Source of the DNA: a virus
DNA length: 55,464 bases
IMG/VR virus record: IMGVR_UViG_3300029319_008445
Span: 1-55,464 of that record
Reading direction: 5' to 3' (one strand)
The position numbers and the translations under genes are program-made. Positions 3,236-25,310 of the stretch are shown here, one piece after another. The notes beneath the pieces are model-generated. The model did no database searches and was not told where the DNA came from. It was given only the letters and a program-made list of their open reading frames with translations. Every line of letters begins with the position of its first letter. Positions within the stretch are counted from its first letter, which is position 1.

Positions 3236-4006
3236 ATGCCACACATTTCGTTTTCTGAGCTTCGCAATTGGAAGCAATGCCCGTTTTATCATAAATTAAC
3301 CTACGTCGACAAAATTGCCGGATTCGTCGGTAACGAATTCACTGCTTTTGGACGAGCAATTCACGATTCTTGTGAAAAGCTCCTTCTTGAGGGTGATGAT
3401 GGAAAGATGTATAGTTTTTTTATCAACAAATTTGAGAAGGAGATTGAGGATCTCCTTTTGAAAGAGGTCGAATTAAAGCAAGATTTGGTTAATCAGATGG
3501 TCATCCAAGGAGAGAATATTCTTCCTTCCATTTTGCCTGGAATTAAAGAATATTTTGAGGACTTTGAGGTTGTTTCGACAGAAGAGCAACTAATGGTCCC
3601 CATGGAAGAGTTCGAGGGGTATAAATTTAAAGGATTCGTAGATCTAGTGATAAAAACACCAGACGACAAGTACCATATTATTGACTGGAAGACTTGCTCC
3701 TGGGGCTGGGATTCTCGCAAGAGGTCTGATCCAATGGTCACATACCAGCTTACGCTGTATAAACACTACTTCGCAAAGAAGCACAACATTGATCCCAAGA
3801 ATATTGAGACACACTTTGCCTTACTGAAACGTACAGCAAAGAAAAACAATGTTGAAATGTTTCGAGTAACGAGTGGTCCAAGAAAAACACAAAATGCTCT
3901 TAACTTATTGTTAAAAGCAGTATACAATATCTCTAAAAAGCGGTTTATTAAGAATCGTCTTGCCTGTAGAGGTTGCGAATTTTATAAAACGGAGCATTGC
4001 CCATGA
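3236..4006 (+). CDS. PD-(D/E)XK nuclease, Cas4/RecB-like, probable Fe-S cluster
   Basis: A 256-aa protein with the RecB/Cas4 nuclease layout: N-terminal SFSELRNWKQCPFYHKL (Cys15), active-site His43 (AIHD), Asp136 (GFVDLV), and the D-x-K pair Asp150/Lys152 in IIDWKT, followed by the QxxxY-type motif YQLTLYKHYF. The C-terminus is CRGC..C (Cys244, Cys247, Cys255). Together with Cys15 this matches the split four-Cys [4Fe-4S] arrangement of Cas4 and AddB-type nucleases. It is probably a DNA exonuclease acting in phage recombination or repair, or in degrading host DNA. The GAGG site at 3228-3231 precedes ATG 3236. No other CRISPR gene is nearby, so a CRISPR adaptation role is not suggested. Confidence 0.88.
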   Translation: MPHISFSELRNWKQCPFYHKLTYVDKIAGFVGNEFTAFGRAIHDSCEKLLLEGDDGKMYSFFINKFEKEIEDLLLKEVELKQDLVNQMVIQGENILPSILPGIKEYFEDFEVVSTEEQLMVPMEEFEGYKFKGFVDLVIKTPDDKYHIIDWKTCSWGWDSRKRSDPMVTYQLTLYKHYFAKKHNIDPKNIETHFALLKRTAKKNNVEMFRVTSGPRKTQNALNLLLKAVYNISKKRFIKNRLACRGCEFYKTEHCP

Positions 4007-5268
4007 GTGAAAATAAAAAGATTAAAGTATTTACAATTTCCGACCACCCTTTTAGCCCATCTGGTGTCGGTATTCAGACAAAGTACATTTGTCAAGGACT
4101 TCTTAATAGTGGAAAATTTCAAATAGTCAGCTTTGGAGGCGCTATTAAGCATGATAAGTACGAACCAATGAAGACGGAAGAATATGGGGATGATTGGGTT
4201 GTTTATCCTGTTGATGGTTACGGAACTCCAGATATGGTTAGGTCTTTGATTAGGGACGAAAAACCTGATATCCTATGGTTTATGACAGATCCTCGTTTTT
4301 GGGGTTGGCTCTGGATGATTGAACACGAGATTAGACCATTAATGCCAATGGTTTATTATCATGTCTGGGACAATTATCCCCCACCGCGATACAATAAGAA
4401 GTGGTATGATTCGAATGATGTAGTTTGCACAATATCGAAGGTTACAGATGATGTTGTGGGCATTGTCTCTCCGGATGTGGAAAGACACTATGTTCCACAC
4501 GCAGTAGCATCCGAATCGTTCAAACCTCTTCCGCCAAAAGATGTATTTAAAGCCAAATTGGATTCCTTGGGGCCTGAAGCCAATAATAAGATGGTATTTT
4601 TCTGGAATAACAGAAACGCACGAAGGAAGCAGAGCGGCACTTTAGTTTTTTGGTTTAAAGAGTTTCTGGATCAGGTGGGTCATGACAAAGCTTGTTTGAT
4701 TATGCACACCGATCCAAAAGACCCTAACGGACAAGATCTTGAACATTTGATTAGTATGCTTGGTGTGGATAATGGACAAATTATGTTATCCACAGCGAAA
4801 TATCCAGAGGAGCATCTGGCAGCCATTTACAATATGGCCGACTGCACCATTAATATTTCTGATGCTGAAGGGTTTGGTCTGGCCACACTGGAGTCGCTTT
4901 CTTGTGGCACACCAATTATTGTTAATATGACCGGCGGCCTGCAGGAACAAGTAACAAATGGAGAAGAATGGTTTGGTATTGGTATTGAACCTTGCTCTAA
5001 AGCGATTATTGGTTCTCAAGAGATTCCATATATTCGCGAAGATCGATTGAATAAAGAACAGTTTGTTAGCGCACTGGTCGAGTTTTATAATATGACTCCG
5101 GAGCAAAGAAAAGAGATGGGCGACCGAGGTAGGGAACATGTTAAGAAAAACTATGGTTTTGAAAAATTTCAAAGCCGATGGGTTGAACTTATGTTAGGTG
5201 TCCATGAGAACCATGGTTCTTGGGAAACTAGAAAAGATTACAAATCTTGGAATTTAACGGAGCTTTAA
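4003..5268 (+). CDS. Glycosyltransferase, GT-B fold (GT4-like)
   Basis: A 421-aa GT-B glycosyltransferase. The start is ATG 4003, forming an ATGA overlap with the nuclease stop and preceded by GGAG 8 bases upstream; an in-frame TTG at 3997 is less likely. The N-terminal domain opens with a beta-strand and a glycine-rich acceptor loop (ISDHPFSPSGVGIQTKYI). The C-terminal nucleotide-sugar domain carries the retaining GT4 E-x7-E pair (Glu289 and Glu297 in AEGFGLATLESLSCGTP). It transfers a sugar from an activated donor to an unknown acceptor. It is the first gene of a long, tightly packed glycan-synthesis operon. Confidence 0.92.
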   Translation: MSENKKIKVFTISDHPFSPSGVGIQTKYICQGLLNSGKFQIVSFGGAIKHDKYEPMKTEEYGDDWVVYPVDGYGTPDMVRSLIRDEKPDILWFMTDPRFWGWLWMIEHEIRPLMPMVYYHVWDNYPPPRYNKKWYDSNDVVCTISKVTDDVVGIVSPDVERHYVPHAVASESFKPLPPKDVFKAKLDSLGPEANNKMVFFWNNRNARRKQSGTLVFWFKEFLDQVGHDKACLIMHTDPKDPNGQDLEHLISMLGVDNGQIMLSTAKYPEEHLAAIYNMADCTINISDAEGFGLATLESLSCGTPIIVNMTGGLQEQVTNGEEWFGIGIEPCSKAIIGSQEIPYIREDRLNKEQFVSALVEFYNMTPEQRKEMGDRGREHVKKNYGFEKFQSRWVELMLGVHENHGSWETRKDYKSWNLTEL

Positions 5269-5269
5269 A

Positions 5270-6544
5270 ATGAAGAAAAAGGTTATAGTAAGGGGTCCGG
5301 CTTTAAGTCGCTCTGGGTATGGAGAACATACTCGTTTCATCCTTCGGGCCTTGCGAAGTCGCGAGGATATTTTAGATATATATCTTTATAATCTAAATTG
5401 GGGAAAAACAGGGTGGCTATGGGAAGAAAATGAGGAGAGAGACTGGCTAGAAGGGATTTTGGAAAAAACTGTCTTTTATACGCAGCAGGGTGGCAAGTTT
5501 GATGTATCGATGCAGATCACCATCCCAAACGAGTGGGAAAACTTAGCACCAATTAATATTGGTGTGACTGCCGGCATGGAAACAAACAAAATATCCCCAA
5601 CATGGATTGAAAAAAGTCAAGTTGTCGACCACATAATCACGATTTCTGAGCATTCTAAGAGTGGATTTACAAATACATCATACCAGGCAAAAAATAATGC
5701 AACCGGAGAGGTGATTAATGATTTTCGATGCACGGTTCCAGTTGATGTAGTTCATTATCCAGTCAAAGATTATGAACCAGCCGCTTTGGATATTGATTTT
5801 GAAACTGATTTTAATTTTTTGACTGTGGCACAGATATCGCCTAGAAAGAATATTCAAAACACAGTTAAATGGTTTGTGGAGGAGTTTATCGACCAACCAG
5901 TCGGGCTGGTTATTAAATGCAATCAGATGAACAATTGTACCGCTGATAGAATGCATACGAAACATGCACTTCGTAACCTGCTGGAGGAATATAAAGACCG
6001 GAAATGCAAGGTCTATTTGTTACATGGTTCTATGACTGATGAAGAAATGACTGCTGTTTATCAGCATCCAAAGATTAAAGGCTTAATTAGCTTAGCACAT
6101 GGAGAGGGATTTGGATTACCTATTTTTGAAGCTGTTTATAATGAGCTTCCTGTTATCGCTCCTGATTGGAGTGGCCACATTGACTTTCTTTATAAGCCAG
6201 TAAAGGATAAGAAGACCGGTAAAGAAAAAAAGAGGCCCCATTTTGCGTCGGTTAAATACAAAATTCAACCAATTCAAAAAGAGGCAGTTTGGAAGGGAGT
6301 ATTGGAGGCAGATTCAATGTGGTGCTATCCAGAGCAGGGTTCTTACAAAATGAGATTGAGAGAAGTTTATAAGGACTATAATCGATTTTCCAGCCAAGCC
6401 AAGAAATTAAATAAGTGGGTCAGAGAAAACTTCACAGCAGAACAACAATATGAAAAAGTCATGAACGTAGTATCATCATACGTCGATTTTACATCGAATG
6501 AAGAAATAGACAGAATGTTTGCAATGTTAAATGAAGGAAAATGA
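5270..6544 (+). CDS. Glycosyltransferase, GT-B fold (GT4-like)
   Basis: A 424-aa GT-B glycosyltransferase beginning 1 base after the previous stop. The N-terminus has the acceptor-side glycine loop (GPALSRSGYGEHTRFIL). The C-terminal donor domain has a long HGEGFGLPIFEAVYNELPV motif with the E-x7-E pair Glu279/Glu287. Residues around 315-325 contain a lysine-rich insertion (KDKKTGKEKKRP) not usual in compact GT4 enzymes. It ends by an ATGA overlap with the next glycosyltransferase. Donor and acceptor cannot be read from the sequence. Confidence 0.9.
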   Translation: MKKKVIVRGPALSRSGYGEHTRFILRALRSREDILDIYLYNLNWGKTGWLWEENEERDWLEGILEKTVFYTQQGGKFDVSMQITIPNEWENLAPINIGVTAGMETNKISPTWIEKSQVVDHIITISEHSKSGFTNTSYQAKNNATGEVINDFRCTVPVDVVHYPVKDYEPAALDIDFETDFNFLTVAQISPRKNIQNTVKWFVEEFIDQPVGLVIKCNQMNNCTADRMHTKHALRNLLEEYKDRKCKVYLLHGSMTDEEMTAVYQHPKIKGLISLAHGEGFGLPIFEAVYNELPVIAPDWSGHIDFLYKPVKDKKTGKEKKRPHFASVKYKIQPIQKEAVWKGVLEADSMWCYPEQGSYKMRLREVYKDYNRFSSQAKKLNKWVRENFTAEQQYEKVMNVVSSYVDFTSNEEIDRMFAMLNEGK

Positions 6545-8160
6545 TGATATTATTTGTAGCGGATCTTTTTGCGGATCAATATAGGGGTGGCGCAGAATTA
6601 ACAACGGAAGCGTTGTTTCAATCATCTTTGATGCCGGCTAAAAAAGTTCTCGCACAATCATTAAATCCCAAATTAATGGAGGCGCATAAAGATGCTTTCT
6701 GGATTTTTGGAAACTTTGCTAGTTTATCTGAGGATTGCTTACTTTATGCTATCAAGAATCTGAAATACTCAGTTTTGGAATACGATTATAAATATTGTGA
6801 ATATCGTTCTCCAGGCAAGTGTGCTCAAGCTACTGGTTCTTGTAAGTGCGAGTCTGCGAGGCACGGCAAGATTGTTGCAATGTTTCTAAATTCTTCTTTA
6901 ATGACGTGGTGGATGTCACGAAAACAGAAAGAACACTATCAAAAGTTTTATCCTTTCTTAAAAAACACCAATAATACAGTTTTAAGTTCTGTTTTCTCAC
7001 ACGAAACTCTTGATTATGTTGAGACTCTAGATACAAAAAACAAAAATGATAAATGGATTATCATGAATTCGCAGTCTTGGATCAAGGGTGTTGATGATGC
7101 GGTTAGGTATGCCGAAGAAAACAATTTAGAGTATGAATTAATCTGGGGCCTGGAACATAAAGATTTTTTGAAAAAGCTCGCTGAATCAAAAGGGCTTATA
7201 TTTCTCCCAAAAGACGGAGACACTTGCCCCAGAATGGTAATCGAGGCAAAATTGCTTGATTGTGAGTTGGTATTGAACGACAATGTACAACACAAGGACG
7301 AAGATTGGTTTGCAACCAGATCTAAAACCATGGATTATCTTCGAAAAGTCGCATCTAGATTTTGGTTAACCTTGGAAGAACTCGCTCCGGAGCATTTACA
7401 AGTTCCTGATGTTGATACGACCAACGATCAAAGATTTCACATTGTCGTACCTTTTTATAATGCTGAAAAATGGGTTATGAAGTGTATCAATGGCATAAAA
7501 ATGCAGTCACATACAAACTACATTTGCACTTTCATTGATGATATGTCGACAGACAAAAGCGCTACGTTAGTAGAGAGAGCGATAAAGGGAGACCCAAAAT
7601 TTAAATTAATTAAGAACACTGAGAAAAAATATGCACTAGGAAATATTGCACATGCCCTAGAACGAACAGAATGCCGCCTAGATGACGTGGTAATACTTTT
7701 AGACGGGGATGATTGGTTTTCTTCGTCGAAGTCGCTTAAACGGCTTTGTAGGGAGTATGAAGACGAGAATTGTTTACTAACTTATGGAAGTTATGTGTAT
7801 TTTCCCCGGGGCATAAGAGGAATAGAGCCTTCCCAATATCCAGAGGAAGTGATAAAAAACAACTCTTTTAGACGAGATCAGTGGCGAGCTTCACATCTCA
7901 GGACTTTTAAACATAGTTTATGGAATCACTTGAATCATGATGATTTAAAATATGATGATGGGGAATATTATAGAATGACTTATGACCAGGCTATCATGCT
8001 ACCTCTTTTGGAAATGGCCGGCCCAAAATCTAGGTTCATCCCAGATATTCTTCATGTATATAACAAAGCGAACCCTCTGAATATCGATAAGAACAAGGGT
8101 TTGGAACAGCATTCGCTGGCTCAAAAAATCAGAAATAAAACTCCATACGCTAGATTATGA
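6541..8160 (+). CDS. Two-domain glycosyltransferase: GT-B-like plus GT2
   Basis: A 539-aa fusion. Residues 1-290 resemble a reduced GT-B/GT4 domain (opening FVADLFADQYRGGAEL, later PRMVIEAKLLDCELVLND), with a Cys-rich insertion around residues 85-105 (CEYRSPGKCAQATGSCKCE). Residues about 300-539 are a GT-A fold GT2 domain starting FHIVVPFYNAEKW. It has the Asp of IDDMSTD and the metal-binding DxD at LLDGDDW (Asp388, Asp390, Asp391). The two halves could add two consecutive sugars. The first half lacks a clean E-x7-E and may be structural. It overlaps its neighbours by ATGA at both ends. Confidence 0.88.
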   Translation: MMILFVADLFADQYRGGAELTTEALFQSSLMPAKKVLAQSLNPKLMEAHKDAFWIFGNFASLSEDCLLYAIKNLKYSVLEYDYKYCEYRSPGKCAQATGSCKCESARHGKIVAMFLNSSLMTWWMSRKQKEHYQKFYPFLKNTNNTVLSSVFSHETLDYVETLDTKNKNDKWIIMNSQSWIKGVDDAVRYAEENNLEYELIWGLEHKDFLKKLAESKGLIFLPKDGDTCPRMVIEAKLLDCELVLNDNVQHKDEDWFATRSKTMDYLRKVASRFWLTLEELAPEHLQVPDVDTTNDQRFHIVVPFYNAEKWVMKCINGIKMQSHTNYICTFIDDMSTDKSATLVERAIKGDPKFKLIKNTEKKYALGNIAHALERTECRLDDVVILLDGDDWFSSSKSLKRLCREYEDENCLLTYGSYVYFPRGIRGIEPSQYPEEVIKNNSFRRDQWRASHLRTFKHSLWNHLNHDDLKYDDGEYYRMTYDQAIMLPLLEMAGPKSRFIPDILHVYNKANPLNIDKNKGLEQHSLAQKIRNKTPYARL

Positions 8161-9062
8161 ATATTCATTTGGAAAACGTGGATCCATTTAGTAATTCTGG
8201 ACCCAACTCATTTGGTCGCAAATTGGTCAAATATATGGGCAATATGGGACACACATTCAACAATAAGCAAGAAGGAGATATATCTTTAGCATTTATTCAA
8301 GCAGTTAAGGATAAGCACTCTATTCCACTGATTCAAAGATTAGATGGGATATATTTTAACACAATTCAAAATTATAGGGTGCAAAATTATTTAATAGAGG
8401 AAACATACAAGAAGGCAAGTGGGGTTGTTTTTCAATCGAATTTTAATCGCGACCTAACATTTGAATTTTTTGGACCTCATGATAATTACGCAATCATTCA
8501 CAATGGCGCAGACGTAGAGGAAATAGAAACAACACAAAGGTTTCTTAAATATCCAGACAGGTTTTCAGAAATATGGTGCTGTGCATCTTCCTGGAGGCCA
8601 CACAAAAGGCTAGATGATAATATTAAATACTTCCTTGAGCACGCCCCCGATGATGCTTGTTTTATAATCGCCGGCGACGTGAATCATCGTTTTAATGATC
8701 CTAGGGTTTTTTATGTTGGCAACGTTCAACAAAACACTCTTTATCAAGTCTATAAGGCTTCAACTCACTTTGTCCATTTGGCTTGGCTTGATCATTGTCC
8801 AAATGTTGTTGTTGATGCTAGGGCGTGTGGATGTAAGATTATTTGCTCGTCTTCTGGCGGCACAAAAGAAATTGCAGGTCCCGATGCAATTGTAATCGAA
8901 GAAGAGGAATGGGATTTCCAACCGGTTAATCTATATCAACCTCCAGAGTTGGACTTTAGTAAAAGGATTAAAAATACTTGGGACATCAACTACAATATGA
9001 CAAGGACGGCAGAACAATATGAAAGTTTTTTCACTAGTACCAGAAGAAAATTGGATTCTTGA
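8157..9062 (+). CDS. Glycosyltransferase, GT-B fold (GT4-like), compact
   Basis: A 301-aa compact glycosyltransferase. The N-terminus VDPFSNSGPNSFGRKLVKYM is a typical acceptor-side loop and helix, and the donor side reads WLDHCPNVVVDARACGCKIICSS followed by GGTKEI. The first Glu of the usual E-x7-E is replaced (DHCPNVVVD), so catalysis may use a variant site. It is about 70-100 residues shorter than typical GT4 enzymes. Its 3' end overlaps the next gene by 44 bases in another frame, one of the longest gene overlaps in the window. Confidence 0.85.
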   Translation: MNIHLENVDPFSNSGPNSFGRKLVKYMGNMGHTFNNKQEGDISLAFIQAVKDKHSIPLIQRLDGIYFNTIQNYRVQNYLIEETYKKASGVVFQSNFNRDLTFEFFGPHDNYAIIHNGADVEEIETTQRFLKYPDRFSEIWCCASSWRPHKRLDDNIKYFLEHAPDDACFIIAGDVNHRFNDPRVFYVGNVQQNTLYQVYKASTHFVHLAWLDHCPNVVVDARACGCKIICSSSGGTKEIAGPDAIVIEEEEWDFQPVNLYQPPELDFSKRIKNTWDINYNMTRTAEQYESFFTSTRRKLDS

Positions 9063-9942
9063 TAGGATTAGTAAAGAGTGGACATCTTTACATCCTGAAC
9101 TTTGTGCAAAAAGCCCAGAAGAGGCAGATTTAATATGGATTATCAGTCCGTATCTCTGGCATAGGGTTCCAACAAGACTTCTTATCGATAAAAAAGTTAT
9201 AGTCAGCATCCACCACGTGGTGCCAGAGAAGTTTGACAAGTCTAATCTCCGTAACTTTGTTTCAAGGGATAAGTTTGTAGATCAATATCATGTGCCTTGT
9301 CAAAAAACCAAAGATTTTATTTCTAGGATAACAGAAAAACCTATTGAGGTTATTGGATATTGGTATAATTCGGATATTTGGTATCCATCGGATAAAGCAA
9401 AAGCTCGTGATTTTTTGGAACTACCTCCAGATGCATATGTAGTTGGTAGTTTCCAAAGAGACACAGAAGGTACAGACTTGATTAGCCCCAAGCTTGAAAA
9501 GGGTCCAGATCTGTTTATTGAGACCCTCAAAAAAATAGAAAAAGATAATTTATTTGTATTATTGGGTGGATGGCGAAGGCAGTATGTAATCAATAGGCTT
9601 GAAGAAGAGGGCATAGGTTATAAATTTATTGAAATGGCCCCCCTGGAGCTTTTGAGAGAAATGTACGCTGCTTGTGACTTGTATGTTGTTGCTTCAAGAG
9701 TCGAAGGGGGCCCACAAGCTATATTAGAGTCTGCTGCCATGAAGATTCCAATTATTTCTAGAGATGTTGGAATGGCTTCTGCAGTATTGAATGGAAATTG
9801 TATTGTCGATGTTCCAGAGGATATGTATTATCCAGTTAACGAAGATCTTGAGATTTGTTATAATAATGTCAAAGCTTATGAGATGCATAATCTCGTTGAG
9901 GATTATGTAGAATTATTTAAAAAAACTTGTGGAGGAGAATAG
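9019..9942 (+). CDS. Glycosyltransferase, GT-B fold (GT4-like), compact
   Basis: A 307-aa compact glycosyltransferase starting inside the end of the preceding gene. The internal start ATG 9019 is favoured because the residues directly after it (MKVFSLVPEENWILDRI) form the expected first beta-strand and helix. The donor-binding motif is ASRVEGGPQAILESAAMKIP, with E-x7-E at Glu229 and Glu237. Its stop is followed at once by the next gene; a GGAGGAGAAT stretch at its end is the ribosome-binding site for the dehydrogenase. Confidence 0.87.
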   Translation: MKVFSLVPEENWILDRISKEWTSLHPELCAKSPEEADLIWIISPYLWHRVPTRLLIDKKVIVSIHHVVPEKFDKSNLRNFVSRDKFVDQYHVPCQKTKDFISRITEKPIEVIGYWYNSDIWYPSDKAKARDFLELPPDAYVVGSFQRDTEGTDLISPKLEKGPDLFIETLKKIEKDNLFVLLGGWRRQYVINRLEEEGIGYKFIEMAPLELLREMYAACDLYVVASRVEGGPQAILESAAMKIPIISRDVGMASAVLNGNCIVDVPEDMYYPVNEDLEICYNNVKAYEMHNLVEDYVELFKKTCGGE

Positions 9943-9943: not shown

Positions 9944-10741
9944 ATGGATATTGGAGTTGTTGGGGTCGGCGTCGTTGGAGGTGCCGTTTGTAATGGACTC
10001 AAGGAACTCGGACATAATGTAAAAGTGCATGATATCAAGCTTGGTACCACAATTGAAAACATTGTTAGCACTGAGGTGTGTTTTATATGTGTTCCAACTC
10101 CCTCGAAAGAAAATGGGGAATGTAACACAGAGATTGTTGAGAGCGTTGTTGCTGATTTAAGCGAATGCAATTATTCTGGTGTAGTGGCTATAAAATCCAC
10201 AGTAACTCCGGGTACGACAAATCGCCTATCGAAAAAGCACTCAAATTTGGAACTATGTTTTGTACCAGAGTTTTTACGGGAAAGATGTGCTACAGAAGAC
10301 TTCATTCATAATCACGACTTGTGCGTTATTGGAACTGACAAATCCAGCGTTTATGAATTACTAACAGAGGTCCATGGGCATTACCCGGAAGAGTTTGTAC
10401 AACTGCCTCCATTGGAGTCTGAATTTGTCAAGTATTTCAACAATATTTATAACGCGACATTGGTAACTTTTGCGAACAGTTTTTATGAAGTGTGTCGAGC
10501 AAATGGTGCGAACTATAGTAAGGTTAAAAACACTATTGTAAAAAGAGAGCATATCAATGATTGTTATCTGAATTGTGGTGAAGGTATGAGGGGTTTTGGT
10601 GGCCCTTGTTTGCCGAAAGACACGAGAACTATAGCTGCTATGGTTAATTCACTTGAATTAGATGTCGACTTTTTTAAGACGCTATTGCAAGAGAATTCAA
10701 AATATAAAACAACAGTATTTGAAGGTATGAGAGAAGAATAA
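9944..10741 (+). CDS. UDP-glucose/GDP-mannose dehydrogenase family, short form
   Basis: A 265-aa nucleotide-sugar dehydrogenase. The start is ATG 9944, preceded by GGAGGAG; an open extension to GTG 9929 would consume that site and is rejected. The N-terminus is an NAD-binding Rossmann fold (GVVGVGVVGGAV). The central domain has the STVTPGTT motif, and the catalytic Cys222 lies in GFGGPCLPKDT. Family members oxidise the C6 hydroxyl of a UDP- or GDP-sugar to a uronic acid with two NAD+. They are usually 380-450 aa with a C-terminal sugar-nucleotide domain; here the protein ends shortly after the catalytic Cys region, so that domain is missing. TAATG overlap with the carbamoyltransferase. Confidence 0.9.
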   Translation: MDIGVVGVGVVGGAVCNGLKELGHNVKVHDIKLGTTIENIVSTEVCFICVPTPSKENGECNTEIVESVVADLSECNYSGVVAIKSTVTPGTTNRLSKKHSNLELCFVPEFLRERCATEDFIHNHDLCVIGTDKSSVYELLTEVHGHYPEEFVQLPPLESEFVKYFNNIYNATLVTFANSFYEVCRANGANYSKVKNTIVKREHINDCYLNCGEGMRGFGGPCLPKDTRTIAAMVNSLELDVDFFKTLLQENSKYKTTVFEGMREE

Positions 10742-17419: not shown

Positions 17420-18312
17420 AAGTCTTTATTTGCTATTACATAAAGGATACCCCTCACGGAGGAGCAAATCAGTTCTTAAAAGCTTTAAGGGATAAGTTTG
17501 CAGAAAGGGGTATGTATTCTGAAAACCCGGCCCATTGTGATGTAGTGTTGTTTAATAGCCATCATTATGGAAACGAACTGGCACAACTCAAGAATAGATT
17601 TAACAATAAAGTGTTCGCACACAGAGTCGATGGTCCTATGAGGCTTTATAATGATATGAGCGATCAAAGGGATTTTATTGTACACCAGCTTAACGGTATG
17701 GCTAATGCGACGATTTTTCAGAGTCAATGGTCTCAAGCAAAGAGCGTAGAACTCGGCTTTCAGTGTAAGGCTCCGACAGCTGTCATATGCAATGCACCAG
17801 ACCCAAATATTTTTAATTCGGAATATCAAAAGAAAACAAACGACAAGATAACCTTGATAGCGACGAGTTGGTCAGACAACATGAGGAAGGGATTCAGGTA
17901 TTATAAATTTTTGGATAACAATTTGGATTTTAGTAAGTATGAGTTCTTATTTGCGGGCCGCTCACCGGTGGAGTTTGAAAACATTAAGATGTTAGGCGCA
18001 CTATCCTCTAAAGAATTGGCAAAACATATCAAATCCAGTGATGTTTTTATAACTGCTAGTGAGAACGATCCTTGTTCAAATTCTTTAATCGAAGCTTTGT
18101 CCTGCGGGGTGCCCGCTATTGCCTTAGATAGTGGAGGTCATCCCGAAATTATTAAGGATGGCGGCTGCTTGTTTCAAAATTATGAGGATTTAATGAAAAT
18201 AATGGAAGAAATCCCGTATAATATTAGCAGCTATAAGAAAAACATAGAAGTTGATCACATCGACGATGTCGTTGAAAAATATACAAACTTCTTTAAACAA
18301 TTGCTACGGTAG
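17416..18312 (+). CDS. Glycosyltransferase, GT-B fold (GT4-like), compact
   Basis: A 298-aa compact glycosyltransferase starting at TTG within the upstream stop (TTGA). The N-terminal CYYIKDTPHGGANQFLKAL is the acceptor-side loop and helix. The donor side contains ITASENDPCSNSLIEALSCG followed by VPAIALDSGGHPEII, the usual GT4 phosphate-binding region, here with Asn-Asp-Pro in place of the common E-G-F-G. The middle holds the linker strand ITLIATSWSDNMRKGF. It is followed 4 bases later by the sugar-activation fusion gene. Confidence 0.87.
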   Translation: MKVFICYYIKDTPHGGANQFLKALRDKFAERGMYSENPAHCDVVLFNSHHYGNELAQLKNRFNNKVFAHRVDGPMRLYNDMSDQRDFIVHQLNGMANATIFQSQWSQAKSVELGFQCKAPTAVICNAPDPNIFNSEYQKKTNDKITLIATSWSDNMRKGFRYYKFLDNNLDFSKYEFLFAGRSPVEFENIKMLGALSSKELAKHIKSSDVFITASENDPCSNSLIEALSCGVPAIALDSGGHPEIIKDGGCLFQNYEDLMKIMEEIPYNISSYKKNIEVDHIDDVVEKYTNFFKQLLR

Positions 18313-18316
18313 TAAA

Positions 18317-20377
18317 ATGAAAAAGACAAATTTGATTTTCCCCATGGCTGGCGAAGCTAGTCGGTTCGGATACAGCTTCAAGCCATTCATGAAGTTGGGC
18401 GATCAGACGTTTATTGAAAAGGCAGTTGAGCCGTTTTATAAATGGAGGGAGTATATTGATAAGGTCTATTTTATCTATAGACAAGACCAGGAGGATGATT
18501 ATTCAGTCAGTGAATATTTGTTCAACAATATAGATTTTGAAAAAGATGAAATCGTTCCCATAATTATTCCTGGTAAAACCAAGGGCCCATTGGAAACAAT
18601 TTATACAGCCTTGAGGCAAGAACATATCAAGAACTCCATTGTTTGTGATTGTGATCATCAGATAAAGGTAGATAACTTGTTTGATAAGATTATCGAAACA
18701 GGGTTTGAAAGGACGGTTATTCCTGTCTGGGAAATAGATGAATCTGAAAGCAAGAACTGGTCTAAAATTATAATTGATGGTGCAAAGATCATTAACATTG
18801 TTGAGAAAGAAAAAGTAGATTTTGACAAATACAATGTTTGGGGTATTCTGGGGTGCATCTATTTTCCAAATATGGATTATTTCCTACGGACAGACGGTGT
18901 CTATGTATCTGATGTCTGTCGTAATATATTGAAAACTGAGGATAATTTAGCTTTCTCAGCTATTGATCAAGCGTTCTTTTTTGGCGATCCTGAGATGTTG
19001 GAAAACCATGTTAATCAAAGGCGCAACCAGTGTTCCTTCTTTTTTGACATTGATGGGGTTTTGCTGAAACATAACGATCACTCTTCTAATGAGTTTCGGA
19101 AAAACTTACCCTTGAAAGATAATATTAAGATTTTGAAACAACTTAAACAAAACAATCATAAAATCTTTTTGACGACTGCAAGAAGTACAAAGTATCGGGA
19201 AGGATTAGAGGGACTCTTAAAGAAAATGGATATCCCCTATGATGGTCTCATGACTGGGATGGCGTCTGGACCAAGAGTTCTGGTAAATGATAGAAAACCG
19301 TCAAAACCTTTCACCACACAGGCTAATGCGGTGGAGAGCTACAGAAATGAGCCATTAGTGTTCGATATAAAGAAGCTTTTAGAAAAGAACAGTGAAGTTG
19401 TTGAGAGTGATTTATCAGCTAATTCTGGGGCTCTCACATACCTAATGAGAAGGGGAACGGAGCGGTTCATTAGGAAAATCGTCCGGAAGAATACAGATGA
19501 GTATTTAAAACATATTGACATCTTAAAAAGGCAATATTTCGATCTACAAAGGTTAAATTCTTTCAAGCCTGGTATATGTCCAAATGTTATATCATCTACT
19601 GAGAACAATTTAGAATATTATATCGATATTGAATATCTGGAAGAATATCAGAAACTAAATGCTCATGCTCGTCCAGTCCAGGCTCAAGTGTTAAAGAGGG
19701 TTATAAGGGACCTAAGAAGGAATGTCTATTGTTATAGCAAGTCCTTAAATAAAACAGAGAGAACTGAGTTTTTCAATAATTTTATTGAAAGTAAGATTAT
19801 AACAAAGTTAAATAATTTCTCTATTCAAAATCCATTGATGAAGAGATTGATTAATGGAGATTGTGTCTATATCAATGGCAAGAAATACAGGACGTTAAAA
19901 GAAATTTTTAATAACAAGAATATAATCGATTTTGCACCAAAAGAGATAAGCCCTGTCCATGGTGATTTGACCTTGGAGAATATCTTATATAACACTGTGT
20001 TAGATGACTATAAGCTTATTGATATGGATGGTGCCAAATTAATGGACACGAGATATCTTGACTTGGGTAAATTGTCACAGTCAGTTTTATCTCACTATGA
20101 AGAGTGGAATGATTATGATTTGAAGATTAGCTTTGAAGGGGATAATTTTACTTGTGATTCTTCTTGGTTTGAGTTGAGAGCAGGAGATGAAACATTTATA
20201 AATGAGATCTGGTCGTTTAGAGAGGGTGCTATAGAGAACGCTATATTCTATATGGGGACTTATTTTATAAGATTTACACCCTTTCGCTTAAAAAAAGGAA
20301 TCAACCATGGTATATTTGCATTAATTATGGCAGTTGTGTGGTTGAATAAATTAAGCCATATAAAGGAGAAAAGTTAA
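18317..20377 (+). CDS. Nucleotidyltransferase-HAD phosphatase-APH kinase fusion
   Basis: A 686-aa three-domain protein. ATG 18317 is chosen because the first residues after it (KKTNLIFPMAGEASRFGYSF) are the start of the nucleotidyltransferase fold; the frame is open to 18251 but that part overlaps the GT gene. Residues 1-235: sugar-phosphate nucleotidyltransferase, with the G-x-x-SRF...KPF signature and Asp in CDCDHQI. Residues 238-345: HAD phosphatase with FFFDIDGVL (Asp244, Asp246), the Thr motif LTTARS and a VNDRKP loop. Residues 400-686: APH/choline-kinase-like, with HGDLTLEN (His548, Asp550, Asn555) and metal-binding LIDMDG (Asp569). It could phosphorylate, trim and activate one sugar; substrate unknown. 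Confidence 0.87.
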   Translation: MKKTNLIFPMAGEASRFGYSFKPFMKLGDQTFIEKAVEPFYKWREYIDKVYFIYRQDQEDDYSVSEYLFNNIDFEKDEIVPIIIPGKTKGPLETIYTALRQEHIKNSIVCDCDHQIKVDNLFDKIIETGFERTVIPVWEIDESESKNWSKIIIDGAKIINIVEKEKVDFDKYNVWGILGCIYFPNMDYFLRTDGVYVSDVCRNILKTEDNLAFSAIDQAFFFGDPEMLENHVNQRRNQCSFFFDIDGVLLKHNDHSSNEFRKNLPLKDNIKILKQLKQNNHKIFLTTARSTKYREGLEGLLKKMDIPYDGLMTGMASGPRVLVNDRKPSKPFTTQANAVESYRNEPLVFDIKKLLEKNSEVVESDLSANSGALTYLMRRGTERFIRKIVRKNTDEYLKHIDILKRQYFDLQRLNSFKPGICPNVISSTENNLEYYIDIEYLEEYQKLNAHARPVQAQVLKRVIRDLRRNVYCYSKSLNKTERTEFFNNFIESKIITKLNNFSIQNPLMKRLINGDCVYINGKKYRTLKEIFNNKNIIDFAPKEISPVHGDLTLENILYNTVLDDYKLIDMDGAKLMDTRYLDLGKLSQSVLSHYEEWNDYDLKISFEGDNFTCDSSWFELRAGDETFINEIWSFREGAIENAIFYMGTYFIRFTPFRLKKGINHGIFALIMAVVWLNKLSHIKEKS

Positions 20378-20378
20378 A

Positions 20379-21083
20379 ATGAAAGAAAGAGTCGACATAG
20401 AAATAGATATTTACTATGATGGTAGCGACAGAATAGAAGAATACTTACACAAAGTAGATGGTGTCACTACCAATATCGGATTCTTGAAGAAGTCAGGAAT
20501 TGTAGATTATTCTCAATTTATTAGAGATACCCTGTCACTGAACGAGGACAACAAACCAATATCGTTTCAGGTGTTTTCAGATTCTAGAGAAGGTGCCAAA
20601 CTCCAAGCACTGAAGATAGCTTCTTTCTCTCCTGAAGTGTTTGTTAAGATCCCCGTTGTTAGCCCCACAGGCGAGAGTTTTTCGTCCTTGGTCGAGGAAA
20701 TGGTTTTTAAAAACGGTTTGAACATTAATACTACATGTGTTTATACAAAAGGCCAGATTGACGAACTAGCTTTTTTGAACAAGGCTGAATATCCAACTAT
20801 AGTTTCTATTTTTTGTGGAAGAATCGGTGACACTGGGCACGATCCACTGGATATCGTAAATTATGCGGTTTCTAGATTTCGAAACAATGATAATGTAAGG
20901 ATTTTGTGGGCCGGCTGCCAAAGGGTATGTGATATTTTAACTGCTCAAGAATCTGGGTGTGATATTATCACTGTCCCAGAGGGAGTTCTTAAGAAAATGG
21001 ATAGGATTGGTATGTCTTTGGCAGACTTTTCTCTTAAGACATCTATAGATTTTCACAACGATGGTGTCGACCTGGTGCTTTAA
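20379..21083 (+). CDS. Transaldolase family protein (TalC/FSA type)
   Basis: A 234-aa class I aldolase of the small transaldolase/fructose-6-phosphate aldolase type. Visible signatures are DGVTTNIGFLKKSG near the N-terminus, the Schiff-base lysine Lys90 in VFVKIPVV, GLNINTTCVY, and IFCGRIGDTGHDP. Length fits TalC/FSA (about 215-230 aa). Cyanophages carry talC as an auxiliary metabolic gene, where it redirects carbon towards pentose phosphates. Here the gene is one base after the sugar-activation fusion inside a sugar-nucleotide operon, so it may instead supply a sugar phosphate such as sedoheptulose 7-phosphate; this is inference. Confidence 0.88.
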   Translation: MKERVDIEIDIYYDGSDRIEEYLHKVDGVTTNIGFLKKSGIVDYSQFIRDTLSLNEDNKPISFQVFSDSREGAKLQALKIASFSPEVFVKIPVVSPTGESFSSLVEEMVFKNGLNINTTCVYTKGQIDELAFLNKAEYPTIVSIFCGRIGDTGHDPLDIVNYAVSRFRNNDNVRILWAGCQRVCDILTAQESGCDIITVPEGVLKKMDRIGMSLADFSLKTSIDFHNDGVDLVL

Positions 21084-21088: not shown

Positions 21089-21661
21089 ATGGATATAGAA
21101 AAACTTTTAGAAAACATTCCCGATAAAAGGGAGTGGAAAACAACTACTTCTCACAAATTCAAAAGAGACTTATATGAGCTTTTCAATGAGTTGGGTTTGC
21201 AAGACTCTAAAATTGTGGAACTAGGAACACACCATGGGCATACTACACGAATTTTGAGTTTTCTATTTAATGAAGTTGTAACCTATGATATCATTGATGA
21301 TGGGTTTTCTAAGAAACTCAACCAAGATCGTGAGAACATAACTCATAGATATCAGGATATTTATGAGTTTCCGTGGTGGGAAGAGTGTGCCGGCGCAGAT
21401 GTTGTTTTTATTGATGCCGTGCATAAATACGAAGAAGCAAAGAAAGATATACAAAATGCCTTAAAAATCGAGGGTGTTCGTTATATAATATTTGATGATT
21501 ATGGGATGTTTCCAAGTGTCAAGAATGCAGTGCTTGAAAGTATGAATGACGCTTGGCCTAGATTTAAACCATATAAGTATATTGGCGAACCACCTGGATC
21601 TGATTGTCGTCCTGGCAAGACTTTACAAGACTGGGAAGGTCTCGTTTGTAAAGTTGGGTAA
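21089..21661 (+). CDS. Class I SAM-dependent methyltransferase-like
   Basis: A 190-aa Rossmann-fold protein of the Methyltransf_24 kind. It has the SAM-binding motif VELGTHHGHTTRIL, the acidic strand end VVTYDIIDD, the catalytic-region motif DVVFIDAVHKYEEAKKDI and later YIIFDDYG. It probably methylates a hydroxyl or amino group on a sugar of the glycan, given its place. The C-terminus (GSDCRPGKTLQDWEGLVCKVG) fills the fold. A second possible acceptor is the phage protein or nucleic acid. ATG 21089 has no strong ribosome-binding site. Confidence 0.82.
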   Translation: MDIEKLLENIPDKREWKTTTSHKFKRDLYELFNELGLQDSKIVELGTHHGHTTRILSFLFNEVVTYDIIDDGFSKKLNQDRENITHRYQDIYEFPWWEECAGADVVFIDAVHKYEEAKKDIQNALKIEGVRYIIFDDYGMFPSVKNAVLESMNDAWPRFKPYKYIGEPPGSDCRPGKTLQDWEGLVCKVG

Positions 21662-21671
21662 TAACTTGAAA

Positions 21672-22520
21672 ATGGGGAAGAATATATCCGTATACGGTTC
21701 TACCGGTTTTATAGGTGGTAGGTTTTGCCAGTTATACCACAATAATATTGTCAGGATCCCTAGAGAACAAAGAAAACCGGAGACAAATGAAGTCCTGTAT
21801 TTCATAAGCACCACAAACAACTACAACATATTTGACAACCCTCACGTCGACATTGAAACAAATTTAAGTCTCTTGATTGATGTTTTAGAACAATGTAAGG
21901 GAAGGGAAGATATAGTTTTCAACTTTATCAGTTCTTGGTTTGTGTATGGAAAGACAGATGATTTACCTGCTCATGAAAACTCTGTGTGTAATCCTAGGGG
22001 ATTTTATTCTATTACGAAAAGGACTGCTGAGCAGCTTCTAACATCCTACTGTGAGACATTTAAAATAAAATATCGCATACTTCGCCTAGGTAATGTCTTT
22101 GGTGAGACTGATGCTGATGTCTCTAAAAAGAAGAATGCGATGCAATACTTGATCAATGAAATTTACAACGATAGGGATGTAAATCTATACGATGATGGTA
22201 GTAATGTGAGAGATTATATTTACGTTGATGAAGCCTGTCGTGCGATTAAATTATGCATCGATGCTGCTCCTTGTAATGAAATAATCAATATAGGAAGCGG
22301 CAATCCCACAACTATCAGAGAAATCATGTCTTATTGTAGAGACAAGCTAAATTCAAAAAGCAAGTTCGTTTCCATTGATGCACCGGAGTTTCACAAGATT
22401 GTGCAAGTCAAAAATATGTATTTAGACATCACCAAATTAAAGAACCTTGGATATGTTCCGGATCTTAATATATGGGACAAGATAGATGTAATAATGAATA
22501 ACTTGGGGGCTGAATTATGA
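21672..22520 (+). CDS. Extended SDR, NAD-dependent epimerase/dehydratase
   Basis: A 282-aa extended SDR. ATG 21672 is preferred; TTG 21666 would add two residues. The open frame back to 21546 lies inside the methyltransferase gene and is not protein-like. The NAD-binding loop is YGSTGFIGG, the active-site pair sits in GFYSITKRTAEQL (Y-x3-K), and RDYIYVDEACRAI and INIGSGNPTTIREI are typical of NDP-sugar epimerases/reductases. The N-terminal Rossmann half is short, with the usual acidic NAD-discriminating region missing. It could be a 4-ketoreductase or 3,5-epimerase-type partner of the RmlB-like enzyme encoded next, with which it overlaps by ATGA. Confidence 0.85.
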   Translation: MGKNISVYGSTGFIGGRFCQLYHNNIVRIPREQRKPETNEVLYFISTTNNYNIFDNPHVDIETNLSLLIDVLEQCKGREDIVFNFISSWFVYGKTDDLPAHENSVCNPRGFYSITKRTAEQLLTSYCETFKIKYRILRLGNVFGETDADVSKKKNAMQYLINEIYNDRDVNLYDDGSNVRDYIYVDEACRAIKLCIDAAPCNEIINIGSGNPTTIREIMSYCRDKLNSKSKFVSIDAPEFHKIVQVKNMYLDITKLKNLGYVPDLNIWDKIDVIMNNLGAEL

Positions 22521-23410
22521 GATTTGTTGTCACCGGTGGTCGTGGATTTATAGGAAGTCACTTCGTAGAAGAAGCTTTGAGGATGGGACATAGCGTTGTT
22601 GACATAGATAAGATTACTTATTGTGCTCACTCGAATCTACCATGGGATAATCACAAGAATTATAAACTTATCAAACAAGATATAACGGAATTAAAGCACT
22701 TGCCTAGTTGTGATGTCTTAATCAATTTTGCAGCAGAAAGCCATGTTGATAATTCCATCAATGAGACTGCTCCATTTGTTAGAAGTAATATTCTGGGTGT
22801 TCACAATTTGCTAGAACTAGTCAGGGGCAAGAAAGAGTACGATAGGCCGCTGTTCTTTCAGATAAGCACAGATGAAGTCTATGGGGATTCTTTGGAGAAA
22901 TATTTTGCAGAAGAGGATCGTCTCAATCCAAGCAATCCCTATTCAGCCAGCAAGGCTGCAGCAGAAATGTTGGTTCTTTCGTATAATAAGACTTATGGAA
23001 TGGATTATGTTATAACAAGAAGCACCAACAATTATGGGGAAAGACAATATCACGAGAAGCTAATACCAAAGATTCAGGATTGCATTAAACATTGTCGCAA
23101 GATTCCGATCCATGGCACCGGCGAATATGTTCGTGATTGGTTATATGTCAAAGATAATATAGATGCTTTGTTTACAATCATAGACCGCAAAATCACAAAT
23201 GAGATTCTCAACATTGGTGCAAACAATCATCTGCAAAATTTAGAAGTTGTAGATACGGTCCTAGGGTGGCACTCCTTGACTCCCTTAAATATGGTACAGT
23301 TTGTAGAGAACAGATGGGGTCAAGATATCAAGTACGCAGTCGACTGCACAAAGATGGAAAAACTAGGCTGGAAGCCAAAATATAATAATGGACTACATCG
23401 TTGGTATTAA
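22517..23410 (+). CDS. RmlB-like NDP-glucose 4,6-dehydratase
   Basis: A 297-aa extended SDR resembling dTDP-glucose 4,6-dehydratase. It has TGGRGFIGSHF for NAD, the dehydratase signature FQISTDEVYGDS (Thr118, Asp119, Glu120: the Asp/Glu pair used for water elimination), Y142-x3-K146 in NPYSASKAAAEM and TRSTNNYGERQYHEKLIP. It would turn an NDP-glucose into the 4-keto-6-deoxy intermediate used by the aminotransferase and by the E1-like enzyme. It is slightly shorter than cellular RmlB (about 350 aa); the C-terminal substrate domain is trimmed. It probably feeds most branches of the island. Nucleotide specificity (dTDP, CDP, UDP) is unknown. Confidence 0.9.
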   Translation: MRFVVTGGRGFIGSHFVEEALRMGHSVVDIDKITYCAHSNLPWDNHKNYKLIKQDITELKHLPSCDVLINFAAESHVDNSINETAPFVRSNILGVHNLLELVRGKKEYDRPLFFQISTDEVYGDSLEKYFAEEDRLNPSNPYSASKAAAEMLVLSYNKTYGMDYVITRSTNNYGERQYHEKLIPKIQDCIKHCRKIPIHGTGEYVRDWLYVKDNIDALFTIIDRKITNEILNIGANNHLQNLEVVDTVLGWHSLTPLNMVQFVENRWGQDIKYAVDCTKMEKLGWKPKYNNGLHRWY

Positions 23411-23426
23411 AAACAAAGGAAGTAAA

Positions 23427-24194
23427 ATGAGCAAAACACAGATTGATTTTATAATCCCCTCTTACAGTTCTCCAATGTTAACAATATGTTGTATTAGGAG
23501 TTTCGAGAAGAATAAAGGTGATTTTGATTTTAGGTACATAATCGTCGAGAATGCATGTGATGATTCTTATAAAGAAGATGTATTACTGGTTAGCGAAAAT
23601 GTTCTATGGATTAATAATCCCAGTAAGAACACTATTGCTGCTAATCGCCACGCCTGGGGTAATGCAGAGGCAATTGAGATTGGTTTACAAAACTCAACCT
23701 CGGAGTATGTTTTTATATGTCATAATGACGTCGCAGCAACTCATCCGGATTGGATGAAAACACTCTATAGTAAGGTGGAGGAGGGTTGCAAAATGGTGGG
23801 TACAAGGTTCGATAATCCAGAAAGCCAGCGGATAGGTGCTTTGCATCAATCCGGCCTGTTAATCAACAGGGAGGTGGCTTTAAACGTGCCTTCTATATAT
23901 CCAGAGTGGGATGAAGAGTCTAGCTCATGGAAGCTAGATGTTGGTGATGCATTTACAAGATATTGTAGGCAAAATGATTTAGAATATTTCTGCTTTCGCA
24001 ACACTCACAATAGAAATGTTGATATAGAATTACCAACCCCATACAACGAAATGACTTTTGATAGAGTGATAGACTCTGATGGGAATGTCATTTATATGCA
24101 CCTAGGAAGGGGTTCAATGAAGCAGTCAAACAGATATTATGGGAAAAACAATATTGAACAATGGAAGAATTTTCTAGAGGGTGAGATTCTATGA
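23427..24194 (+). CDS. Glycosyltransferase, GT-A fold (GT2-like)
   Basis: A 255-aa GT2-like enzyme from ATG 23427, with AAAGGAAG about 5 bases upstream; the frame is open to 23388 but that part overlaps the upstream gene. N-terminal IDFIIPSYSSPMLTICCIRS is the donor strand and helix, YVFICHNDVAATHPDWM is the DxD-position loop (HND variant), and LLINREVALNVPSIYPEWDEE followed by SWKLDVGDAF is the acceptor side. It ends in an ATGA overlap with a small gene. Last glycosyltransferase of the island. Confidence 0.88.
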   Translation: MSKTQIDFIIPSYSSPMLTICCIRSFEKNKGDFDFRYIIVENACDDSYKEDVLLVSENVLWINNPSKNTIAANRHAWGNAEAIEIGLQNSTSEYVFICHNDVAATHPDWMKTLYSKVEEGCKMVGTRFDNPESQRIGALHQSGLLINREVALNVPSIYPEWDEESSSWKLDVGDAFTRYCRQNDLEYFCFRNTHNRNVDIELPTPYNEMTFDRVIDSDGNVIYMHLGRGSMKQSNRYYGKNNIEQWKNFLEGEIL

Positions 24195-24369: not shown

Positions 24370-24398
24370 TTAACAGGTTTAAAAAAATGTATTATAAT
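24370..24398 (+). promoter_or_regulatory. Sigma70-like promoter, TTAACA-17-TATAAT
   Basis: TTAACA at 24370-24375 (5 of 6 match to TTGACA), a 17-base spacer with an A-tract, then a perfect TATAAT at 24393-24398. Initiation would fall near 24404-24406, about 20 bases before the next gene. It lies in the only intergenic gap over 70 bases in the window, which supports a real host-polymerase promoter for the genes from 24426 on. Confidence 0.65.
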
Positions 24399-24425
24399 AT
24401 ATTCAATATCGGGTGATTGTGGGTA

Positions 24426-25310
24426 ATGGCTAGGTGTTTAGTAACAGGACATAAAGGATATATCGGTTCTCGGCTTTTTGAAAGACTACAAGAGCTAGGT
24501 CATGAGGTTCTGGGAATCGATTTACAAGAGGATTTTCCAAAGGATATAAGGGATTTTTTTAATGAAGATTTCGGCAGTGAGGTCTACCCTGCATATTGGA
24601 ATTTTAAACCAGAGTATGTCTTTCATCTAGCTGCAATTCCCAGAGTCGCTTATAGTATTGAGGAGCCTGTAAAAACAACGAAGAATAATATCCTCGCCGG
24701 CAGTATGGTTCTTAACTTCGCTAGAAAGGTCGGGGCCAAACGATTAATTTATGCCGGCTCTTCTTCTGTTGTAGGCAACGGAGACGGCCCTGCAAGCCCG
24801 TATGCTTTGCAGAAACTGTATACGGAGATGGAGTGCCGGATATACTCTGAACTGTACGGCTTAGACACCGTTACGTTAAGATATTTTAATGTGTATTCTC
24901 CGGATCAACAAGCAAAAACAGCATATGCTACGGCAGTGGCAAATTGGATGCAGCATATACGGGATGACAAACTCCCCTTTATTACCGGCGACGGTGAACA
25001 AAGAAGAGATATGGCTAATCGCGAAGATGTCGTGTCAGCTAACATTTTTGCAATGGAATACGAAGGGACATTTAACGGCCAACAGTTTGATGTGGGCACT
25101 GGAGACAATATATCTTTAAATGAAATGAAGAAGATAGTAGAAGAACATATTCCAAATGTTGTTTTCGAATATGTTGCAGAAAGAAAAGGAGATGTTAGGC
25201 TCACAAAGGCGGATATCCAACCTTTACGGGATTTAGGCTGGGAGCCTCAATATACGATTGAGAAAGGAATTCATGAATGCTTTAGGAGGTTAAAAAATGA
25301 AATTATCTAA
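24426..25310 (+). CDS. Extended SDR, GalE/WbpP-like NDP-hexose 4-epimerase
   Basis: A 294-aa extended SDR; ATG 24426 is preferred, with TTG 24417 possible. It has the NAD loop TGHKGYIGSRL, YVFHLAAIPRVAYSIEEP, the active-site Ser region YAGSSSVVGNGDG and YALQK (Y-x3-K), and then LRYFNVYSPDQQAKTAYATAV, the substrate loop common to UDP-glucose and UDP-GlcNAc 4-epimerases. The REDVVSANIFAME motif is also typical. It belongs functionally with the island but is transcribed after the intergenic promoter, together with transcription and baseplate genes. Exact sugar specificity is not readable. Confidence 0.9.
   Translation: MARCLVTGHKGYIGSRLFERLQELGHEVLGIDLQEDFPKDIRDFFNEDFGSEVYPAYWNFKPEYVFHLAAIPRVAYSIEEPVKTTKNNILAGSMVLNFARKVGAKRLIYAGSSSVVGNGDGPASPYALQKLYTEMECRIYSELYGLDTVTLRYFNVYSPDQQAKTAYATAVANWMQHIRDDKLPFITGDGEQRRDMANREDVVSANIFAMEYEGTFNGQQFDVGTGDNISLNEMKKIVEEHIPNVVFEYVAERKGDVRLTKADIQPLRDLGWEPQYTIEKGIHECFRRLKNEII

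Follow-up and report, generated by a model that had tools for sequence, protein, structure and literature searches.

Large clusters of sugar genes have been known in phages since the first cyanophage genomes, and their target and functionality have long been debated. In the mycobacteriophage systems described by Freeman et al. 2023, one or two phage-encoded glycosyltransferases (GTs) reportedly act on virion proteins in the bacterial cytoplasm, with no nucleotide-sugar cassette. The clusters of cyanophages (PMC3037559, PMC7824862), one of which is located near phoH in P-SSM2 (PMC3037559), and the host recognition cluster (HRC) of pelagimyophages (PMC7029224) have been interpreted as serving host-surface modification. 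For those of cyanophages, an action on host lipopolysaccharide (LPS) is unproven (PMC3037559). Moraphages code for four core GT orthogroups and have unexplained variable islands, and the same study names virion glycosylation among the options (PMC12619734). Chloroviruses are the proven precedent for capsid glycans that are built by a virus, and for the two GTs present in all 43 chloroviruses, synthesis of the common core is predicted (PMC5408694). Here, we analyze a glycan gene run of about 21 kb (positions 3997-25310, all genes on one strand) in the IMG/VR virus record IMGVR_UViG_3300029319_008445, a linear sequence of 55,464 bp that is referred to as the window. The record is probably a fragment of a larger genome, so that predictions about the rest of the genome can be tested only via its relatives.

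The best explanation for this run is that it is one allele of a hypervariable glycan locus, which has a fixed address in a lineage of large aquatic phages. When the carbamoyltransferase was used as first bait, nine viral contigs were obtained. Seven of these share a left frame with the window (PhoH, a putative peptidase, a PDDEXK nuclease and two family 4 GTs, termed GT4#1 and GT4#2) and, where the contig reaches that far, a right frame (zinc ribbon, sigma-like protein, baseplate); the other two are more distant. Between the frames, the seven contigs carry 12-28 kb of differing genes. A scan with GT4#1 revealed homologs on at least 589 viral contigs, and the best 80 of these loci, 78 of them with a clear GT4#1, were used for counting. 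The nuclease is encoded at most three genes upstream of GT4#1 (70 of 71 loci), GT4#2 is encoded at most two genes downstream (76 of 76 loci), and 803 of the 821 downstream open reading frames (ORFs) are on the same strand. The carbamoyltransferase was rejected as a core gene: its apparent conservation was due to its use as bait, and it occurs downstream of GT4#1 in only 3 of 78 loci (within the retrieved flanks). The cassette fills the interval between GT4#2 and the FmdB zinc-ribbon/sigma-like block and extends from 0 to more than 20 kb. This interval is 193 bp to 8.3 kb in the 13 loci with both borders, which are biased to short cassettes because flanks were limited to 10 kb, and it reaches at least 20 kb in longer contigs. 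The core pair persists without a cassette in two loci (L130, 193 bp; L139, 358 bp).

The core pair is also seen in cultured relatives. Flavobacterium phage immuto has the nuclease, GT4#1 and GT4#2, followed by a sugar cassette. In Microcystis phage Mel-JY01, the order is nuclease, GuaB, GT4#1 and GT4#2, and the cassette is smaller. No sugar genes adjoin the pair in Rhodothermus phage RM378, which consists of GT4#1 and a GT4#2-like gene (p013-p014). Compared to the window, these isolates have 28-36% sequence identity for GT4#1 and 30-31% for GT4#2, the match to GT4#2 from RM378 being weak (E-value 1e-5). In Mel-JY01, the annotation divides GT4#1 into two neighbouring ORFs (L057:9442-10933), which may reflect a split gene, a frameshift or an error in sequencing. 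GT4#1 homologs were also found on 11 contigs in bacterial or archaeal bins (L142-L152; Pelagibacter, Maricaulis, Flavobacteriales, Euryarchaeota). These look like misbinned phage sequences because their gene order is that of the phages.

The cassettes turn over extensively. The 535 cassette proteins of at least 150 aa fall into 236 families at 30% identity, and 150 of these families are singletons. Among 150 family representatives, the commonest Pfam classes are epimerases/dehydratases, methyltransferases and GT1/GT2, followed by DegT enzymes, cytidylyltransferases and sulfotransferases. Several cassette genes in the region 9019-15774 are 72-83% identical to those of contig G001, compared to 57-65% for the flanking backbone. 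That cassette genes are more alike than the backbone points to module exchange between phages. Comparison of window genes to G001 and G005 gave nonsynonymous divergence (dN) of 0.10-0.38 with saturated synonymous divergence (dS), which implies strong purifying selection. A chance grouping of genes is excluded by the family E-values, the synteny in related phages and the purifying selection. The fixed locus, the invariant GT pair, the selection and the presence on at least 589 viral contigs together show that the function matters to the phage.

The sequence-only reading of the window had described the run as tightly coupled, and this is what we find: the genes from 3236 to 25310 are all on the plus strand, with junctions that mostly overlap or span at most 10 bp and a single larger gap (222 bp, before the gene at 24417). 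Its estimate of about ten sugar-transfer genes has to be lowered to eight confident ones, five of GT4 type (3997, 5270, 8157, 9019, 17416) and three of GT2 type (C-terminal half of 6541, 12366, 23388); the gene at 16775, with no family assigned, is a possible ninth. According to Pfam, the run further codes for four epimerase/dehydratase-type proteins and two members of the DegT family, together with a UDP-glucose dehydrogenase (UGDH)-like protein, a carbamoyltransferase, a transaldolase, a fusion protein with a HAD domain and a weakly supported methyltransferase. Family matches bear out the predicted oxidation (9929), amination (13303), 3-deoxygenation (14425), epimerisation (15774, 21546, 22517, 24417) and carbamoylation (10741); candidate enzymes for methylation (21089, with weak Pfam support) and sugar activation (the fusion protein, 18251) are also present. 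The transaldolase (20379) had not been mentioned. The run thus combines several GTs with nucleotide-sugar enzymes and is phage-borne, as are the glycan clusters of T4-like aquatic phages, and homologs of the baseplate proteins gp25 and gp6 are encoded on the same record.

The sequence-only reading also held that export machinery is absent, and this applies to the window and to the lineage. Hydropathy analysis, which detected 9, 6 and 5 segments in the Escherichia coli controls Wzx, Wzy and WcaJ, respectively, revealed no multi-pass protein in the run, and the transferases of the window have no transmembrane segments, i.e., they are soluble and unanchored. A priming transferase (PF02397) was found neither in the nine relatives nor in 17 larger related records, which include three isolate genomes, and a Wzx flippase (PF01943) was not found in these 17 records (all controls were positive). 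There is no polytopic candidate for Wzy at the locus according to hydropathy, PF04932 not having been searched genome-wide, and no GtrA-like protein is encoded there. With both PF01943 and PF02397 lacking, the locus is not a complete Wzx/Wzy-type O-antigen or capsule locus. O-antigen conversion of the GtrABC type was also rejected, as the locus lacks membrane GtrA and membrane-anchored GtrB/GtrC. The protein encoded at 6541 is not a GtrB: the PHROG match (E-value 1.5e-8) covers only its GT2 domain, and the protein has no transmembrane segment. The sole polytopic protein in the cassettes examined is encoded on contig L116, is HTTM-like and is neither Wzx nor Wzy. Its neighbours are a DCC-like protein with a thioredoxin fold and an asparagine-synthase-like gene (L116:18233-20232), the names HTTM-like and DCC-like being assigned by reading. 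The lack of export machinery across the lineage makes a cytoplasmic acceptor the simplest reading. To this extent, the earlier interpretation stands, but its pointers to Ser/Thr-rich giant proteins and to phage DNA as acceptors are not supported (see below).

We lean towards a reading in which a glycan with a conserved core and a variable part is built in the cytoplasm on a product of the phage, most probably a protein of the virion. GT4#1 and GT4#2 would make a short core on the cytoplasmic acceptor, using nucleotide sugars of the host. The swappable cassette behind this pair would make unusual nucleotide sugars, and the cassette transferases, in a presumed order of transfer, would add these to the core, so that cassette variants would result in different sugar coats on the particle. 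The acceptor is most likely a cytoplasmic phage product because no priming transferase, flippase, polymerase or membrane-anchored transferase is found in the locus or in the large relatives. We infer a virion acceptor from the soluble enzymes, the absence of priming and export, the retention of the pair without a cassette and the different hosts of the cultured relatives. It is tempting to go one step further and to speculate that the lineage has a "capsule locus" of its own, in which the invariant pair glycosylates a conserved virion protein and the exchangeable cassette sets the glycotype of the particle, those of some relatives apparently including nonulosonic (sialic-like) acids. We consider this extended version possible but more doubtful.

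Several points weigh against a virion acceptor. The first concerns the composition of the tail proteins. The Ser/Thr-rich giant proteins had been taken as pointers to the acceptor, but the serine plus threonine content of the tail proteins in the window (20.9, 17.4 and 17.3%) is similar to that of gp34-37 from T4 (15.4-19.6%) and of the tail orthologs from the cassette-less relative G022 (22.9, 15.9, 20.8 and 16.3%). Their composition is thus ordinary and lends no support. Secondly, soluble GTs could act on lipid-linked intermediates of the host, which are then exported by host flippases. Thirdly, Wzy (PF04932), ABC transporters and oligosaccharyltransferases are excluded by hydropathy near the locus only, not by family searches of whole genomes. 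The structural similarities of the core pair are also of limited help. AlphaFold2 models of GT4#1 and GT4#2 (mean predicted local distance difference test, pLDDT, 89.4 and 92.3) both have the soluble B736L from chlorovirus NY-2A (3oy2) as the top fold match in the PDB (E-values 6.5e-23 and 1.7e-15), and B736L is also the best sequence match of GT4#1 among solved structures (E-value 1e-9). GT4 is a very large family, and the fold match is therefore weak evidence. The acceptor and donor of B736L are unsettled, and the capsid glycans of NY-2A are devoid of mannose (PMC9614988). We thus keep the match as context and not as proof.

The main rival is remodelling of the host surface, in which phage sugars would decorate the LPS, the capsule or a lipid-linked oligosaccharide of the host and block the adsorption of competitor phages. 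This is the published reading of the P-SSM2-type cyanophage clusters (PMC7824862) and of the pelagimyophages (PMC7029224). It is consistent with the O-antigen-type enzymes of the cassette (RfbH, RmlB-like, DegT), and hypervariability suits serotype-like selection. The glycan would, however, rely on a priming enzyme and a flippase of the host, as neither a GtrA/GtrB-type membrane transferase nor a priming enzyme or Wzx was found in the locus or in the large relatives. In addition, the core pair is invariant even though the hosts of the cultured relatives differ. An acceptor carried by the phage fits this better than host glycans, which vary by strain. On these grounds, we regard host-surface remodelling as unlikely, though it has to be taken seriously.

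Less probable still is that the locus makes a sugar-derived small molecule, secreted or intracellular, or that it is functionless stuffer DNA. A secondary metabolite was proposed by Iyer and colleagues as the product of a second cluster of cyanophages, which codes for carbamoyltransferases (PMC7824862), and stuffer DNA for headful packaging was raised by Sullivan and colleagues (PMC3037559). However, the many GTs per cassette and the constancy of the GT pair point to a polymer-like glycan that is attached to a fixed acceptor and not to a small molecule, and stuffer DNA is ruled out for the genes tested by their intact ORFs and by a dN far below the saturated dS.

Phage DNA had been suggested as an alternative acceptor by the sequence-only reading. 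That it is glycosylated on a hydroxymethylated base, the carbamoyltransferase making 5-carbamoyloxymethyl-cytosine, is very improbable: phage DNA glycosyltransferases and 5-hydroxymethylcytosine carbamoyltransferases are known (PMC8670742) and a nuclease gene adjoins the locus, but the thymidylate synthase family (PF00303) occurs in only 2 of 27 records. It was not found in the window, the nine relatives, the complete genomes of Mel-JY01 and RM378 or 13 of 14 further large relatives; the exceptions are immuto and G019. The protein from G019 was considered as a hydroxymethylase and rejected, as its PFN motif is of the dUMP type, typical for an ordinary thymidylate synthase. In the work that first described DNA-modifying carbamoyltransferases, these were encoded next to ThyA homologs, whereas those beside group-1 GTs were from unmodified contigs (PMC8670742). 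The carbamoyltransferase of the window (10741) adjoins group-1 GTs, and the gene is missing from most cassettes. TET/JBP oxygenases were not found, but the search gave nothing in its control genomes either and is thus uninformative.

Under the preferred reading of a variable glycan on a virion protein, the cassette of the window probably provides a 4-amino-3,6-dideoxyhexose, a uronate-type sugar and a carbamoylated and methylated residue. Judged from family knowledge, a plausible route leads from the nucleoside diphosphate (NDP)-4-keto-6-deoxyglucose made by the 22517 enzyme via 3-deoxygenation (14425) to 4-amination (13303). For the aminotransferase (13303-14421), the best NCBIfam match is LegC-type (E-value 1e-78, below cut-off). 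The nearest solved relative of the 14425 protein is the CDP-6-deoxy-4-hexulose 3-dehydrase E1 (3bcx, E-value 2e-98). The UGDH-like protein (9929-10741) retains the NAD and central domains and the catalytic-Cys motif GFGGPCLPKD, but the C-terminal UDP-binding domain was not found. It is 72-74% identical in two relatives, indicating that this is a stable short form. The gene at 6541-8160 is the first of the cassette; it is commonly retained and recurs beside GT4#2 in relatives. The fusion protein (18251-20377) likely starts around 18320, and its nucleotidyltransferase and kinase domains are assigned from sequence motifs only. Together with the transaldolase, it forms a pair (18251-21083) that recurs in G003/G004 (58% and 68% identity) and may provide an unusual activated sugar or polyol. 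A PDB search with the fusion protein (18320-20374) gave no significant match.

Some cassettes of relatives have noteworthy gene content. Contig G010 (L180/L181, 35571-42026) codes for NeuB (E-value 1e-78), two CMP-sugar synthetases, a weakly matching CST-I-like protein and a PF01973 protein, which is apparently a phage-encoded nonulosonic-acid pathway. PF01973 (MptE/Maf-like) proteins, found in 12 of the 56 related records, and the genes from G010 hint at nonulosonic-acid transfer. Flagellin is a cytoplasmic substrate of Maf enzymes, but the PseD match is weak (E-value 6e-6) and CST-I-like sialyltransferases fit equally well; this is a lead only and does not concern the window. On contig L125 (16272-19337), cassette genes resemble a thiamine pyrophosphate-dependent enzyme and a phosphoenolpyruvate mutase/PanB-like enzyme and perhaps provide a phosphonate or branched-chain sugar substituent.

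The features of the window are listed in Table 1. In this lineage, the gene for the putative metallopeptidase (2451-3227) always separates those for PhoH and the nuclease, and it has no PHROG or NCBIfam match.

Table 1. The glycan locus of the window and the backbone genes by which it is framed.
Feature	Position	Strand	Basis of assignment
PIN-PhoH protein; left backbone	932..2269	+	PF02562 E 3e-49, PF13638; phrog_2765 E 9e-106; kept in relatives
Putative metallopeptidase; left backbone	2451..3227	+	weak M90/ATLF-like (PF06167/PF07737 below cut-off); synteny
PDDEXK exonuclease; direct left neighbour of the locus	3236..4006	+	PF12705 E 6e-18; phrog_69 exonuclease
GT4#1, lineage-conserved core glycosyltransferase	3997..5268	+	PF00534 E 7e-13
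GT4#2, lineage-conserved core glycosyltransferase	5270..6544	+	PF00534 E 1e-6
Two-domain protein, GT2 at C-terminus	6541..8160	+	PF00535 E 2e-19, residues 301-448
GT4 glycosyltransferase (cassette)	8157..9062	+	PF13692 E 2e-8, PF00534 E 4e-8
GT4 glycosyltransferase (cassette)	9019..9942	+	PF00534 E 1.5e-13
UDP-glucose/GDP-mannose dehydrogenase-like, 270 aa	9929..10741	+	PF03721 E 1e-18, PF00984 E 8e-18, no PF03720
NodU/TobZ-type O-carbamoyltransferase (cassette, not core)	10741..12369	+	PF16861 E 4e-62, PF02543 E 2e-23; solved relatives TobZ/GdmN
GT2 glycosyltransferase (cassette)	12366..13298	+	PF00535 E 2e-12
DegT/DnrJ sugar aminotransferase, PseC/LegC/DesI-like	13303..14421	+	PF01041 E 2e-105
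RfbH/E1-type NDP-4-keto-6-deoxyhexose 3-dehydratase	14425..15777	+	NF011936 RfbH, 447.7 bits vs cut-off 423
NAD-dependent sugar epimerase/dehydratase	15774..16766	+	PF01370 E 1.5e-48
Cassette protein, possible glycosyltransferase	16775..17419	+	phrog_13607 (unknown function) E 1e-9; recurs in relatives' cassettes
GT4 glycosyltransferase (cassette)	17416..18312	+	PF00534 E 7e-14
Fusion: nucleotidyltransferase-like, HAD phosphatase-like, APH/choline-kinase-like (HGDLTLENIL, C-terminal)	18251..20377	+	HAD PF08282 E 1e-5, phrog_1238 E 8e-10
Transaldolase/fructose-6-P aldolase-like	20379..21083	+	PF00923 E 9e-20; TIGR02134 E 7e-51, below cut-off
Putative methyltransferase	21089..21661	+	PF13578 E 1e-5
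Sugar epimerase/dehydratase	21546..22520	+	PF01370 E 2e-30; true start probably ~21672 (N-terminus reading)
RmlB-like NDP-glucose 4,6-dehydratase	22517..23410	+	TIGR01181 303 bits, E 2e-90, under cut-off 365
GT2 glycosyltransferase (cassette)	23388..24194	+	PF00535 E 2e-6
Sugar epimerase/dehydratase, final cassette gene	24417..25310	+	PF01370 E 8e-43
FmdB-like zinc ribbon, right border of variable region	25454..25732	+	phrog_1076 E 2e-5; border in relatives, too
Right-backbone protein, late-sigma-like by eye	26020..26724	+	55-66% identity in relatives; no PHROG match
Baseplate wedge genes of the downstream structural module: gp25-like 35913-36305, gp6-like 36329-38125	35913..38125	+	phrog_261, phrog_219, phrog_6

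Phage glycan clusters as such are already known (P-SSM2, pelagimyophages, moraphages), but the architecture of core plus cassette appears to be new. In the open-licence literature, we found no description of a fixed-address locus in which an exchangeable cassette follows an invariant GT4 pair, which is not proof of priority, and a near-identity DNA search of a phage collection gave no match to the window. The locus shares large runs of GTs and epimerases with the "LPS" clusters of T4-like cyanophages (P-SSM2, S-SM2, S-SSM7). It differs from these in that the invariant pair of GT4s and a fixed frame of nuclease and zinc ribbon bound it throughout the lineage, and the lineage is a different one. 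Like the HRC of the pelagimyophages, it is a hypervariable glycosyltransferase island of T4-like aquatic phages (PMC7029224). The HRC, however, is part of the structural region, where it is flanked by VrlC and gp14, and includes tail fibres, whereas the island in the window precedes the sigma-like and baseplate genes, consists of sugar genes only and has the conserved GT pair. The moraphages, large aquatic phages with mostly predicted Bacteroidota hosts, have a similar core (PhoH, gp25, gp6, sigma, "putative peptidase") and could be identical with the present lineage or a sister to it, but their description does not include a GT locus, a fixed address or a cassette (PMC12619734). The question is now narrowed to one testable step, namely what GT4#1 and GT4#2 glycosylate, and with cultured relatives (immuto, and RM378 with the pair alone), an answer is in reach. 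If it is the particle that is glycosylated, phages bear serotype-like variable coats. A parallel in architecture is provided by the chloroviruses (PBCV-1/NY-2A), which also have virus-encoded soluble GTs and sugar-nucleotide enzymes, with a few GTs being universal and the outer sugars variable (PMC5408694). We do not claim orthology. Chloroviruses are viruses of eukaryotes, their genes are scattered rather than clustered, and their acceptor, the major capsid protein, is proven. Soluble virus-encoded GTs, and core GTs in all members combined with variable decoration enzymes, are likewise found in the phage lineage. If the lineage indeed has a "capsule locus", this would be a prokaryotic counterpart of particle glycosylation in chloroviruses and mimiviruses.

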